Assembly: GCF_009848685.1 (NCBI RefSeq)
Contig: NZ_WXTX01000005.1
Location: forward strand, 186,001-250,000
Source of the DNA: Andreprevotia sp. IGB-42
GTDB lineage: Bacteria; Pseudomonadota; Gammaproteobacteria; Burkholderiales; Chitinibacteraceae
Length of the DNA stretch: 64,000 nucleotides
Direction: 5' to 3'
Shown here: one piece after another, positions 49,780 through 54,819 of the stretch
Layout of the letters: each line of letters begins with the position of its first letter
How positions within the stretch are numbered: the stretch's first letter is position 1
Position numbers and translations under genes: made by a program
The notes under the pieces: generated by a model
Databases searched by the model: none
The model's input: the letters and a program-made list of their open reading frames with translations, nothing else
What the model was told of the DNA's origin: nothing

Positions 49780-50514
49780 TCAATTTCTTGGCAGATTGCC
49801 CGACGATTCCTTGAAGTAGGGCTGGCTGGTGGTGCCGCCGCGGATATCCGTCACGGTGCTGCCGGTGGCATCGAAGTACACGGTGATCACGTACAACGTG
49901 GTGGATGAACCGGGAACCGGGCCATTCCAGTTGAGGCGTTTCAGGTTACCGTTGTTGATGGACACGGTATACGCAGGGTCATTGGTGCAGCCGATGATGT
50001 TTTTGACCTGATCCAGCGACATACCCAGCGCAATGGCATCGTACTTGGTGGTGTTGAAGTTGGATGAACCACATTTGCTGGTGACGCCGCCCGCCTGGCC
50101 ACCGAAGAAATAGCGGGTCAGCGCAACCTGCTTGCCGTTGGGCAGCACCAGCGTACCGCTGTTGGGGCTGCTGAAAGTCAGCGTGATATTGCCAACATTG
50201 GCATTCACCACCGTGGGGCTCTGATAGTTGCCATTCAGGCTTTGGCCGCCACCGTACTGCTGCCACACACCCACATAGGTATTGTCGTTGACCATCTGCG
50301 TGGGGCCGGATGCATACCAGATTGCCTTGCCGTTATCGTCATACATGAAGCCGGCCATAAACATCTTGCCGTCCTGTACTTCGATGGTGAAGCCACGCCC
50401 ACCCTCTGCCGCATTCCACCACCAGCCGGTTTCCGGCGTGGCCAGTGCAGGCGCTGCACAAAGCAGCAGAAGCAAGCTGGAGAACAATTTGAAGCAATGC
50501 CGCGCGAAAGCCAT
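49780..50514 (-). CDS. exported protein with WWN-repeat-like and BLIP/SmpA-like domains
   Basis: A 244-residue periplasmic or secreted protein. Signal FSSLLLLLCAAPALA. The first mature part GWWWNAAEGGRGFTIEVQDG, MFMAGFMYDDNGKAIWY is a repeat known from many betaproteobacterial exported proteins. From about residue 150, YDAIALGMSLDQVKNIIGC and VYFDATGSTVTDIRGG fit the SmpA/BLIP fold. ATG 50514 follows AGGAG. The function is unknown. Confidence 0.8.
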   Translation of the reverse strand: MAFARHCFKLFSSLLLLLCAAPALATPETGWWWNAAEGGRGFTIEVQDGKMFMAGFMYDDNGKAIWYASGPTQMVNDNTYVGVWQQYGGGQSLNGNYQSPTVVNANVGNITLTFSSPNSGTLVLPNGKQVALTRYFFGGQAGGVTSKCGSSNFNTTKYDAIALGMSLDQVKNIIGCTNDPAYTVSINNGNLKRLNWNGPVPGSSTTLYVITVYFDATGSTVTDIRGGTTSQPYFKESSGNLPRN

Positions 50515-50902
50515 TGAAGCCAACTCCTGAATGGGACGATATACCCGAAGGCACCGCTGACCGGGCCGGTCGTGGCGAGGTACGGCGATGCTGCATGATG
50601 GGGTGCTGGATGTGGTGCAGATATTTGCAGCACAGCAATCCGCATGTGTTGTGTGCAACGCGCATTATGCCAGCAAATCCGGATATCACTTTCTTTGTTT
50701 GAAATTGAAATATCAGAATTTCTTTAAGTACAGTCAGCTTAACCTTGCTTTACTGGGTGCGCGGTGGCGTTTGTTGGCGGGCTTGGTGTGCGTGAGGGTG
50801 AGGACGATGCCGCGAACAAGCGCTTGCCTGTGGTGGATGAAACAGGACGAGTGCGGTGGGGGGCGCTGCTGGATAGGCATGGCGTGCAGTGGCGTGCAGT
50901 AC
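50515..50902. other. intergenic region
   Basis: 388 bp with no convincing gene on either strand. Open frames crossing it continue into the ssrA gene and have no family similarity. It should contain the promoter of the minus-strand exported protein. Confidence 0.5.
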
Positions 50903-51560: not shown

Positions 51561-51582
51561 AAGGCCGACTGCTGTCGGCCTT
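51561..51582 (-). terminator. terminator of SQRA protein gene 1
   Basis: AAGGCCGAC, loop TGCT, GTCGGCCTT, shortly beyond the minus-strand stop. The same sequence with other loops follows genes 2 and 3. Confidence 0.85.
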
Positions 51583-51604: not shown

Positions 51605-51868
51605 TTATTGCAGCGGCACTACCGCGCGTTGCGAGTAATCCACCAGCGAGGTGCCTTGTGCAGTGTCGAAGTTGGTCAGTGCGGGTGCATCGAGCTTGGC
51701 ACGTTGCGAGAACTGCACCAGGCCCTGGCCTTCGGTCGGGGTGGCTACGGCTGCGGCAACCGGGGTGGTGGCGCGTTGCGAGTATTGCACTAGGCCATCG
51801 GCAGCGCTAGCGGCGCCAACGGTGGCAAACAGGGCAATAGCGGCGAGGGTAGAAGTGAACTTGGTCAT
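51605..51868 (-). CDS. small secreted SQRA-repeat protein, copy 1
   Basis: An 87-residue exported protein of a family I do not know. Signal peptide MTKFTSTLAAIALFATVGAASA, then a 65-residue mature chain with three repeats of the form L-V-x-[FY]-S-Q-R-A: LVQYSQRATTPVAAAV, LVQFSQRAKLDAPAL and LVDYSQRAVVPLQ. Gly/Thr/Gln-rich linkers join them (ATPTEGQG, TAQGTS). No Cys is present. GAAAGGAAAC precedes the ATG. It is monocistronic with its own terminator. Two paralogues follow on the same strand at 52290 and 53453. Confidence 0.8.
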   Translation of the reverse strand: MTKFTSTLAAIALFATVGAASAADGLVQYSQRATTPVAAAVATPTEGQGLVQFSQRAKLDAPALTNFDTAQGTSLVDYSQRAVVPLQ

Positions 51869-52011
51869 GATGGTTTCCTTTCTGTCTTGTGGTCAGAGAT
51901 CGCGGCGGCGAGGGAAACGGCTTTTAACCGGTTGGCTGGCTGTCGCGCTGAATGTCACTGCTGTTTGAGCTGTGCTGCATCCATGACTGAATCATATGGG
52001 TTGATCATGCT

Positions 52012-52058
52012 TTGATAAACCGCTGATTCGTGTATTTATTGTTTCTTATATGTTGATA
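52012..52058 (-). promoter_or_regulatory. conserved 47-bp element before SQRA gene 1
   Basis: Begins TTGATAAA, has TTGTTTCTT at position 27 and ends TTGATA (plus-strand reading). It matches the elements at 52696 and 53861 without gaps and lies 144 bp before the start codon of copy 1. Its constant place suggests a promoter or operator. Confidence 0.65.
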
Positions 52059-52249
52059 ATTGCACGCCCAGATTGCAATGCACCATTACTAAACGATCTA
52101 TCGGCAAGCTGGTTGATACCAAAGTGTGACCACTCATCGGTCAACGTGCGGATGCGATGGGCCGTTCAATCTTTTGCACCGCATGCTCCAGCTTGGACGT
52201 AGGCCCGGCTCACCCGGCGCTGTTGATGATGGGCTGACAGGCATTAAAA

Positions 52250-52270
52250 AAGGCCGACGATGTCGGCCTT
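52250..52270 (-). terminator. terminator of SQRA protein gene 2
   Basis: AAGGCCGAC, loop GAT, GTCGGCCTT, 20 bp beyond the stop of copy 2. Confidence 0.85.
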
Positions 52271-52289
52271 CTGGCGTAGCTGCGAACGC

Positions 52290-52556
52290 TTATTGCAGCG
52301 TCGGCATCACTGCGCGTTGCGAGTAATCCACCAGCGAGGTGCCTTGTGCGGTGTCGAAGTTGTTCAGTGTCGGTGCATCGAGCTTGGCACGTTGCGAGAA
52401 CTGCACCAGTCCCTGGCCTTCAGCCGGGGTAGCGGTGGCTGCGGCAACCGGGGTGGTGGCGCGTTGCGAGAACTGCACCAGGCCATCAGCGGCATTGGCA
52501 GCGCCAAAAGTGGCAAACAGGGCAACAGCGGCGAGGGTAGAAGTGAACTTGGTCAT
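52290..52556 (-). CDS. small secreted SQRA-repeat protein, copy 2
   Basis: An 88-residue paralogue of the proteins at 51605 and 53453. Signal MTKFTSTLAAVALFATFGAANA, repeats LVQFSQRATTPVAAAT, LVQFSQRAKLDAPTL and LVDYSQRAVMPTLQ. It differs from copy 1 at about ten positions and has one extra residue near the end. The coding part is conserved, while the leader behind GGTCAG differs from that of copies 1 and 3. The 47-bp element lies 140 bp before the start. Confidence 0.8.
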   Translation of the reverse strand: MTKFTSTLAAVALFATFGAANAADGLVQFSQRATTPVAAATATPAEGQGLVQFSQRAKLDAPTLNNFDTAQGTSLVDYSQRAVMPTLQ

Positions 52557-52695
52557 GATGGTTTCCTTTCTGTCTTGTGGTCAGTTGCAGCAGTTGCGCG
52601 GAAACGGCGGTTGGCCGGGTAGCGCTGTGCTGAAGATGCCGTTCGCCGTTGGGCTAGGCGGCACCGTTGAGATCACTTTATGCCCATATGATTTG

Positions 52696-52742
52696 TTGAT
52701 AAACGGTAATTTTGTGGATTATTTGTTTCTTTATGGTTGATA
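52696..52742 (-). promoter_or_regulatory. conserved 47-bp element before SQRA gene 2
   Basis: Same pattern as at 52012: TTGATAAA at the left, TTGTTTCTT in the middle, TTGATA at the right end, all at equal spacing. Confidence 0.65.
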
Positions 52743-53084
52743 AAGCGATATGCCAAATCGGTTTAGCTGATTTGCCAGATGCATAAATCGCTGCAGCCCT
52801 TTAACCGCGCGGCTTGCAGCGGGGGTGCCTGGGTTTGCGTCGCGGGCCGGATGCTACGGCCGGCTGCGCGGGCACAATTCACAGTGTGTGGCGAGGAACT
52901 TGCCGCATCCCCGACGTACGCTGCAATGACCTTTTTTGCTGGCCGAGCAGCCTGTTCCTCGTCCAGAAGTTTCCAGGAAAGAGGCTGACTTGATCATGCT
53001 CTCAAAGGTGGCGTTCAGGGATGGCTGGAATCCATTGCTCGCGCCCGGGATGTGCGGGAAGCCATGGACAAGCAACTCTATTTT
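52743..53084. other. region beside the gyrB fragment, origin unknown
   Basis: No gene is recognised. On the minus strand the frame of the gyrB fragment stays open here and would read FPHIPGASNGFQPSLNATFE and SASFLETSGRGTGCSASKKG, which does not look like GyrB. It may be the remnant of another inserted gene. The upper-left part (52743-52860) is GC-rich and featureless. Confidence 0.4.
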
Positions 53085-53390
53085 CAACTGTTCGGCGTTC
53101 ATTTCACCCAAGCCTTTATAGCGCTGGATGCTGATGCTGCGGCGTCCTTCATTCAGCAGCCAATCCAGCGCCTCCATGAAGTGCTTCACGCCTTGCTCCT
53201 GTTCGCCGCGCTTGATCTGCGCATCTGGCTCGGTCAGGTCTAGCAGCAGTTTGGCGGTGTTGATCAGCTGGGCGTAGTCGCCCGAGCGTACAAAGGCGTC
53301 GTCGATATGCTGGATATGCGTTACGCCATGCTGGCCGCGGGTGATGTCTTCACTGCCCAGCTCTAGTGGTGCATCCTGGCTCAGATAAAC
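53085..53390 (-). pseudogene. gyrB fragment
   Basis: On the minus strand 102 codons read as the TOPRIM-distal part of DNA gyrase B: LSQDAPLELGSEDITRGQHG, THIQHIDDAFVRSGDYAQLI, VKHFMEALDWLLNEGRRSIS and IQRYKGLGEMNAEQL. In real GyrB the next residues are a Trp-Glu-Thr-Thr-Met-Asp-Pro block; here the similarity stops exactly after EQL. The left part and the rest of the gene are absent. The fragment sits between SQRA copies 2 and 3, flanked by the terminator of copy 3. Confidence 0.8.
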
Positions 53391-53392
53391 CA

Positions 53393-53416
53393 AAAGGCCG
53401 ACTGACGTCGGCCTTT
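53393..53416 (-). terminator. terminator of SQRA protein gene 3
   Basis: AAAGGCCGAC, loop TGAC, GTCGGCCTTT, 37 bp beyond the stop of copy 3 and touching the gyrB fragment. Confidence 0.85.
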
Positions 53417-53452
53417 GCGTGTACTGCCGGATGTGCCCGGCGTTGCCAGTGC

Positions 53453-53716
53453 TTACTGCAGCGGCATCACGGCGCGTTGCGAGAACTCCACCAGTGATGT
53501 GCCTTGGGCAGTCGCAAAATTACCTGCTGCCGGGGCATCGAGGCGGGCACGTTGCGAGAACTGCACCAGGCCCTGGCCTTCAGCCGGGGTGGCTACGGCA
53601 GCAGCAACCGGGGTGGTGGCGCGTTGCGAGTATTGCACCAGGCCATCAGCGGCATTGGCAGCACCAACGGTGGCAAACAGGGCAACAGCGGCGAGGGTGG
53701 ATGTGAACTTGGTCAT
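53453..53716 (-). CDS. small secreted SQRA-repeat protein, copy 3
   Basis: An 87-residue paralogue. Signal MTKFTSTLAAVALFATVGAANA; repeats LVQYSQRATTPVAAAV, LVQFSQRARLDAPAA and LVEFSQRAVMPLQ. The 130 bp before the gene (53717-53846) are nearly identical to those before copy 1 (51869-51996), so these two arose by a recent duplication that included the leader. The 47-bp element lies 145 bp upstream, next to a divergent LysR gene. Confidence 0.8.
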   Translation of the reverse strand: MTKFTSTLAAVALFATVGAANAADGLVQYSQRATTPVAAAVATPAEGQGLVQFSQRARLDAPAAGNFATAQGTSLVEFSQRAVMPLQ

Positions 53717-53860
53717 GATGGTTTCTTTTCCTGTCTTGTGGTCAGAGATCGCGGCGGCGAGGGAAACGGCTTTTAACCGGTTGACTGGCTGTCGCGCTGA
53801 ATGTCACTGCTGTTTGAGCTGTGCTGCATCCATGACTGCATCATAGGCTCGGGCTATTTG

Positions 53861-53907
53861 TTGATAAATATGTGTTTTGTGGATAAATTGTTTCTTGTGA
53901 ATTGATA
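53861..53907 (-). promoter_or_regulatory. conserved 47-bp element before SQRA gene 3 and lysR
   Basis: TTGATAAA ... TTGTTTCTT ... TTGATA with the same spacing as at 52012 and 52696. It lies between SQRA copy 3 and the LysR start codon at 53920 (12 bp away), so it may serve both directions. Confidence 0.65.
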
Positions 53908-53919
53908 GTCGAGGCGGTC

Positions 53920-54819
53920 ATGGATACTTTGCTCAGCATGCGTGTGTTCAATCAGGTAGCCACACAAGGCAGTTTCGTCGGTGCGGCAACGCGGCTGGGG
54001 CTGTCCACCGCCATGGTCAGCAAACATGTGAAACATCTGGAGCAGCATCTGGGTAGCAGGCTGCTCAACCGCACCACGCGCCACCTCAGCCTGACCGGCC
54101 CGGGCGAAGTGTATTTCGAGCGTTGCCAGCAGGTATTGTCCGAACTGGACGAACTGGAAACCAATCTGCGCCAGACCACCGTCAAGCCGCGCGGCACGCT
54201 CAAGATCAGCGCGCCGGTCACCTTCTGCGTGAATTACCTCGGCCCGGTGATGGTGGACTACTACGAGCGCTATCCGGACATGAAGGTGGATCTGCACCTG
54301 ACCGACCGCGTGGTGGATCTGGTAGAAGATGGCTTCGACATGGGCATCCGCATCTCGGCAGAGCCCAATCCATCGCTGGTGGCGCGGCGGCTCAGCCCCA
54401 TCAAGCTGCGGCTGGTGGCGTCACCGGCCTACCTGGCCAAGCACGGCACACCGCAAACGCCGCAGGATCTCACCAATCACCCTTGCATTACCTATACCTA
54501 TTCCAACCACGGTACCGCGTGGCAGTTCGACGGGCCGGAAGGCAAGGTCACCGTCAACGTACACCCGCGCTTGCGCGTCAACAATGCTGATATGGCCACG
54601 CGCGCCGCGTTGGACGGGTTGGGGCTCACGCTGCAGCCCACCATCCTCACCCAGCAGCACCTGCGCTCCGGTGATCTGGTACCGCTGCTATGCGATTACC
54701 CGCGCCCGGATATCTGGCTGTACGCGGTCTACCCCAACCGTACCCACCTGACGGCCAAGGTGCGCACCTTCATCGACCTGCTGGTAGAGCACTTCGGTGA
54801 AAACCCGCCGTGGAACTGA
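53920..54819 (+). CDS. LysR-family transcriptional regulator
   Basis: A 299-residue regulator. The helix-turn-helix has FNQVATQGSFVGAATRLGLS and MVSKHVKHLEQHLGSRLLNR, and the effector domain begins PRGTLKISAPVTFCVNYLGP. Subgroup is CrgA/AphB-like. ATG 53920 with GAGGCGG upstream gives the usual M-D-x-L start. It is divergent from SQRA gene 3 across the third 47-bp element, which makes it a candidate regulator of the SQRA genes. That link is inferred. Confidence 0.9.
   Translation: MDTLLSMRVFNQVATQGSFVGAATRLGLSTAMVSKHVKHLEQHLGSRLLNRTTRHLSLTGPGEVYFERCQQVLSELDELETNLRQTTVKPRGTLKISAPVTFCVNYLGPVMVDYYERYPDMKVDLHLTDRVVDLVEDGFDMGIRISAEPNPSLVARRLSPIKLRLVASPAYLAKHGTPQTPQDLTNHPCITYTYSNHGTAWQFDGPEGKVTVNVHPRLRVNNADMATRAALDGLGLTLQPTILTQQHLRSGDLVPLLCDYPRPDIWLYAVYPNRTHLTAKVRTFIDLLVEHFGENPPWN

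Follow-up and report, generated by a model that had tools for sequence, protein, structure and literature searches.

Genes of the locus

Three small, mutually similar genes lie close together in strain IGB-42, a bacterium that grows on chitin (PMC8802321) and was later named Andreprevotia ripae (PMC7171219), and their products raise the question of what these proteins are and what controls them. In the window, that is, the whole stretch of 64,000 nucleotides analysed, the ORFs of all three paralogs were found on the minus strand where an earlier note had placed them. The coordinates of the genes (copies 1–3) and of the associated features are given in Table 1.

Table 1. Coordinates of the genes and regulatory features of the locus in the window.
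Feature	Position	Strand	Description	Evidence
Copy 1	51605..51868	−	87-aa exported protein, three SQRA repeats	ORF, repeat test, dN/dS
Copy 2	52290..52556	−	88-aa exported protein, three SQRA repeats	ORF, repeat test, dN/dS
Copy 3	53453..53716	−	87-aa exported protein, three SQRA repeats	ORF; arrangement shared with 7 other genomes
LysR-type transcriptional regulator	53920..54819	+	299 aa, divergent from copy 3	Pfam domains, PDB match
Operator-like element, copy 1	52011..52059	−		Weight matrix score 64.3; genome pattern search
Operator-like element, copy 2	52695..52743	−		Weight matrix score 70.5; genome pattern search
Operator-like element, copy 3	53860..53908	−	Between LysR gene and copy 3	Weight matrix score 64.3; genome pattern search
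Possible promoter, copy 1	51991..52018	−	TTATCA-16-TATGAT, overlaps operator end	Consensus scan only
Possible promoter, copy 3	53840..53867	−	TTATCA-16-TATGAT, overlaps operator end	Consensus scan only
Leader/ribosome-binding segment, copy 3	53724..53745	−	CTGACCACAAGACAGGAAA(A/G)GA; equivalents at 51875-51896 and 52563-52584	
Hairpin terminator, copy 1	51561..51582	−		Pattern search
Hairpin terminator, copy 2	52250..52270	−		Pattern search
Hairpin terminator, copy 3	53394..53415	−		Pattern search; terminator scan

A search of the complete genome (4,706,501 bases in 52 contigs) revealed a fourth copy (G000:C45:51988-52248) on the same contig, approximately 186 kb away, with 92% identity to copy 3. 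Weak matches to the SQRA proteins elsewhere in the genome (L005–L008) were attributed to chance. The copies differ mostly at third codon positions, with dN/dS values of 0.11–0.23 among the four (0.17–0.23 for copy 1 against the others), and hence the ORFs are almost certainly real genes and not chance reading frames; the same ratios indicate that all four are under purifying selection. Copy 3 occupies the ancestral position, divergent from a gene for a LysR-type regulator, and copies 1 and 2 are located behind it in the same orientation. The duplication with conservation on which the earlier note had based a need for dosage is thus borne out by the fourth copy and by purifying selection, while amplification for dosage itself is only plausible. 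Each copy stands alone and possesses its own upstream element, so the proposed monocistronic organization is likely. The nearly identical terminators are also present, as AAGGCCGACN3-4GTCGGCCTT, with three matches in the window and none in 100 shuffles.

Probable export signal and repeats

Read by eye, the signal peptides proposed for the three proteins look Sec-type. They consist of MTKF, a hydrophobic stretch and ANA or ASA followed by AD (in copies 1–3, MTKFTSTLAAVALFATVGAANA|AD), and in the orthologs n-, h- and c-regions with A-x-A are likewise visible by eye. Export of the SQRA proteins past the inner membrane is highly probable. The mature protein of A. ripae is predicted to comprise about 65 residues, including 8–9 Gln and no Cys, His or Trp. 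Secretome data for IGB-42 grown on chitin, GlcNAc and glucose are already public (PXD025087; PMC8802321); the predicted tryptic peptides are LDAPALTNFDTAQGTSLVDYSQR, LDAPTLNNFDTAQGTSLVDYSQR, LDAPAAGNFATAQGTSLVEFSQR and LDAPAADNFATAQGTSLVEFSQR for copies 1, 2, 3 and 4, respectively, and the predicted mature N-terminal peptide is ADGLVQYSQR.

Each of the window proteins contains [GS]-L-V-x-[FY]-S-Q-R-A three times, and all nine units fit the pattern [LV]-[VL]-x-[FY]-S-Q-R-A, in agreement with the count of three repeats per protein made earlier. The best-triple self-similarity scores of copies 1–3 (101–105) exceed those of shuffled sequences (mean 26–30, maximum 44–51). Triple repeats above chance were obtained for four of the five species tested (copies 1–3, A. 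lacus, genome G029 and Amantichitinum); the A. chitinilytica protein, with two diverged units only, scored no higher than its shuffles. The consensus is a 12-residue motif, [GS]-L-[VA]-Q-[FY]-[SA]-x-R-A-[VT]-x-P, recurring about every 20 residues (repeat-motif peptide GLVQYSQRAVTP). In 29 units chosen by eye from this family and the second family described below, position 5 is always aromatic and position 9 always Ala, and Pro at position 12 (24/29), Arg at position 8 (23/29) and Gly at position 1 (22/29) are less strict. In A. lacus, every one of the three units has another residue in place of the SQRA Arg (FANSAV, FAHSAV and YSQSAV); the Arg is missing from the A. chitinilytica units as well, and the residues flanking the unit differ from species to species.

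AlphaFold, run on a six-sequence alignment, did not yield a confident fold for the SQRA protein (mean pLDDT 48, pTM 0.17; the low-confidence model is helical, with no strands), and with such values a fold cannot be claimed. The pLDDT is compatible with disorder without proving it, and may reflect only the small alignment. A fold search from this model was dropped, the model being too poor.

Distribution of the family

The earlier note knew of no such protein family, and database searches give the same picture. Profiles of Pfam-A and NCBIfam gave no match to the SQRA proteins above the curated cut-offs (the best score, 12.5 bits for Anti-TRAP, was considered a chance match), no PDB chain was found by sequence profile at E up to 1, and a literature search returned nothing on these proteins. 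A profile search of 43 genomes of the family found SQRA genes in eight, belonging to three genera: A. ripae, A. lacus, A. chitinilytica, Amantichitinum ursilacus, Silvimonas amylolytica, S. terrae and the genomes G004 and G029, which group with Silvimonas genomes at the genus level. No relatives were found in 369 class-level genomes, where the single match (L068, E 7e-4) was rejected as a methyltransferase-like ORF. A pattern scan of 84,980 species with copy 3 as the query, which detects close relatives only, gave 155 pattern matches and no relatives. Since the genes are missing from most other members of the family, a general role in the use of chitin is not supported.

The LysR-adjacent gene is reduced to about 50–54 aa in S. 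terrae, S. amylolytica and G004 with most repeats gone, which shows that they can be dispensed with at this position. In A. chitinilytica, a shortened second copy of 67 aa with one repeat lies beyond the LysR gene (L034:5263-5466, +); it has an altered operator and is possibly decaying.

Divergent LysR-type regulator

The protein encoded next to copy 3 has the full-length LysR architecture, with both the HTH_1 domain (PF00126; 3.3e-18, 65.8 bits against a cut-off of 26.6) and the LysR_substrate domain (PF03466; 1.9e-47, 161.8 bits against a cut-off of 28). The regulator and the operator described below constitute the strongest evidence on this system, and both were absent from the earlier account, as were the fourth copy and the relics between copies 2 and 3. 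Orthologs of the regulator with 67–86% identity occur in exactly those eight of the 43 family genomes that carry the small gene, and the pair is always divergent; this co-occurrence is given without a probability because the genomes, coming from three genera, are phylogenetically dependent. The outer neighbors of the pair vary by genus (in A. ripae, acyl-CoA thioesterase and AcuI; in Silvimonas, cobalamin genes, by eye; in the remaining genomes, other genes), and the LysR gene and the small gene can therefore be regarded as a conserved unit. The LysR paralogs L080–L084, with about 50% identity, are divergent from unrelated genes or from no gene at all, and lack a convincing element; a score of 17.7 at L083, downstream of that LysR gene in its reading direction, was taken as chance.

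Target genes of LysR regulators are usually divergent. As a kind of system, a LysR regulator paired with a divergent target is known; it is the target proteins that are new. The best PDB sequence match of the regulator was 3hhg (E 3.6e-49), and the best NCBIfam model was YafC, at 225.9 bits below its cut-off of 470; AaeR (166.7 against 425) and TtdR (170.2 against 398) also remained under their equivalog cut-offs. The protein 3hhg, from N. meningitidis, is named CrgA (PMC6422896), and it shares the full-length architecture with YafC, AaeR, TtdR and the regulator described here. In contrast to the CrgA-type regulators, the divergent gene here encodes a small exported repeat protein. At alkB2 in P. 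aeruginosa, footprinting of CrgA revealed two sites (GGGA-N3-GGC... and AGC-N5-A-N5-CGA) (PMC6422896), and the element described below resembles neither.

Operator-like element and transcription signals

Every copy is preceded by an element of about 49 bp, TTATCAACCAnnAAGAAACAATnnATCCACnAAAnnnnnGTTTATCAAC, which contains no clean T-N11-A dyad and features TATC-like boxes approximately 20 bp apart ahead of all targets. In the whole genome, the pattern of the full element matched only at the four paralogs, and the reversed-pattern control gave no matches. Exact matches to the core TTATCAAY-N5-RGAAACA number 10 across the 43 family genomes, and by position all 10 sites lie upstream of SQRA genes or of second-family genes. 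With one mismatch, other members were recovered together with unrelated sites at a chance-like frequency. These observations point to the element as the binding site of the LysR protein, and it is likely that all four copies are under the control of this regulator.

It is rather improbable that the element belongs to another factor or was merely inherited by duplication, with the LysR gene being an uninvolved neighbor. Copies 1, 3 and 4 do share long upstream identity, and so recent duplication accounts for a part of the upstream similarity within A. ripae; however, the element persists across genera and before the second family, although the surrounding DNA and the encoded proteins have diverged, and regulator and element co-occur.

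The leader segment was found among the 43 family genomes only at the four copies, at the A. lacus ortholog and in one unrelated match with three mismatches. The leaders of copies 1 and 3 (51879-51996 and 53728-53845) are 97% identical over 118 bases, more than the coding regions, which suggests recent gene conversion or a constraint on the leader. Rfam gave no match to the leader RNA and its fold z-score was −0.37, which ruled out a riboswitch-like structure. An upstream mini-ORF (ATGGATGC...) was also considered and rejected, as its frame and stop vary across species.

Second family of exported repeat proteins

The second family (L091–L099) was found in Silvimonas and Amantichitinum and comprises proteins of 105–127 aa with internal repeats and a signal peptide of the form MNKFA...SAQAAD. 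It resembles the SQRA family in this signal peptide, in the tandem duplication seen in Amantichitinum and in the common operator core, and one of its units, AQFAFRAVTP, is equal to the SQRA-family motif. In contrast to the SQRA family, its main repeat is W-Q-x-A-A-x-A-x-Q-N-[FY]-x-x-Q...Q-P-G-R, its genes are located away from the LysR gene and it is absent in Andreprevotia. The element precedes all second-family genes with scores of 24–47, its distal half being changed to GGTAGTTTTTCTAC, and it is thus kept despite the divergence of the proteins. A class-level search for the second family, on a sample with no positive control, found no relatives.

The genomes with the shrunken LysR-adjacent gene (S. 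terrae, S. amylolytica and G004) have mostly lost the repeats at that place but keep them in the second family, which may functionally replace this gene. The Amantichitinum genes L092 and L096 (G006:C2:429086-430043) form a tandem pair 634 bp apart, an arrangement that parallels the triplication in the window.

Proposed mechanism and alternative explanations

The SQRA proteins are best described as exported repeat proteins of an apparently new family that is limited to one clade and under a LysR regulator. As a whole, the best explanation, to which we give about an even chance, is a multivalent repeat protein that is exported, probably disordered, switched by the LysR regulator and amplified for dosage. 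It builds on the genes, their repeats, the selection acting on them, the pairing with the regulator and the specificity of the element, all of which are established at the level of sequence. The LysR protein would bind the element of about 49 bp before each of the four genes and, with a small-molecule co-inducer, would switch the gene set jointly. The products would cross the inner membrane via Sec, and the signal peptide would be removed after A-x-A, leaving Cys-free chains of about 65 residues that are probably disordered. The three 12-residue motifs may then act as repeated contact points and make the protein a multivalent binder, be it periplasmic, surface-bound or extracellular, and the gene copies of A. 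ripae would have been multiplied for dosage. The disordered multivalent binder is a tentative proposal, somewhat short of an even chance; multivalent binding together with its partner is speculative, and any named partner or process is unlikely to be correct.

A broader reading is doubtful: clade-specific multivalent exported proteins of chitin-degrading soil bacteria might serve, under one dedicated LysR regulator, as a previously unrecognised matrix, adhesion or communication system, acting extracellularly by way of the 12-residue motif. The corollary that this regulator governs only short-repeat secreted proteins, in two families with one operator core, is held at the same low level. On the preferred reading, three anonymous ORFs would become a defined regulon in which a single regulator acts through a single operator on two families of small exported repeat proteins, so that the function of the repeat proteins is made testable. 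The SQRA family would represent a young, lineage-restricted secreted family with duplication and internal repeats, in which the control element is fixed.

Among the alternatives on function, a small periplasmic stress protein is unlikely but fares best. Here, the LysR protein would sense a reactive or toxic compound and induce an abundant envelope protein, in the manner of other small exported proteins that stress induces; a dedicated LysR regulator with nearest relatives of the CrgA/YafC/AaeR type suits inducible expression, but the element is not common to any stress gene and the repeat architecture is left unexplained.

The earlier note had also considered a protease-processed peptide. A protease acting after export would cut near the repeats and free three related signal or weapon peptides, and the three near-identical units per protein, the several copies and the small exported product agree with such a precursor. 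However, the unit surroundings vary and the Arg residue is lost in A. lacus, so that a trypsin-like cut at Arg is not a common feature; when Arg, the one residue examined, was considered as a per-repeat cleavage site of a RiPP or pheromone, it was not conserved. The flanks hold no conserved gene for a protease, exporter, modifying enzyme or immunity protein, and beside the small gene, the LysR gene alone is conserved across genera. The peptide precursor is accordingly given little credence.

Curli CsgA, FapC and other functional amyloids of bacteria are exported chains of short imperfect repeats, a trait shared with the SQRA proteins, and the least probable alternative is that the L-V-Q-[FY]-S-Q stretches stack as strands between Pro-gated linkers into a surface-matrix polymer that builds extracellular fibers or coats chitin: the regular aromatic/Gln repeats, signal peptide, copy amplification and chitin-degrading soil hosts would fit, but the SQRA units are shorter and Pro-ended and have no sequence match to CsgA or FapC, genes for a chaperone, a nucleator or outer-membrane secretion were not seen in the flanks, the low-confidence model predicts helices and not strands, and most other family genomes, including those of other chitin degraders, lack the genes.

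Other sequences around the locus

Between copies 2 and 3, a fragment of the gyrB 3′ end (53088-53345, −) has 93% identity to the gyrB gene of contig C3 and matches GyrB_insert (1.5e-20); it is regarded as a relic. The piece beside it (52945-53053, +) is a second relic: contig C49 ends in a large ORF for a repetitive secreted protein, haemagglutinin/CdiA-like by eye (L032), and the relic shares 78% identity with a portion of that ORF. An exported ORF at 49780-50658 (−; TGWWWNAAEGGRGFTIEVQ), which had no match in NCBIfam, resembles an ORF located beside the LysR gene in A. lacus (L044:3466-5289, TGWYWNPAEGGRGYAIEVQ).
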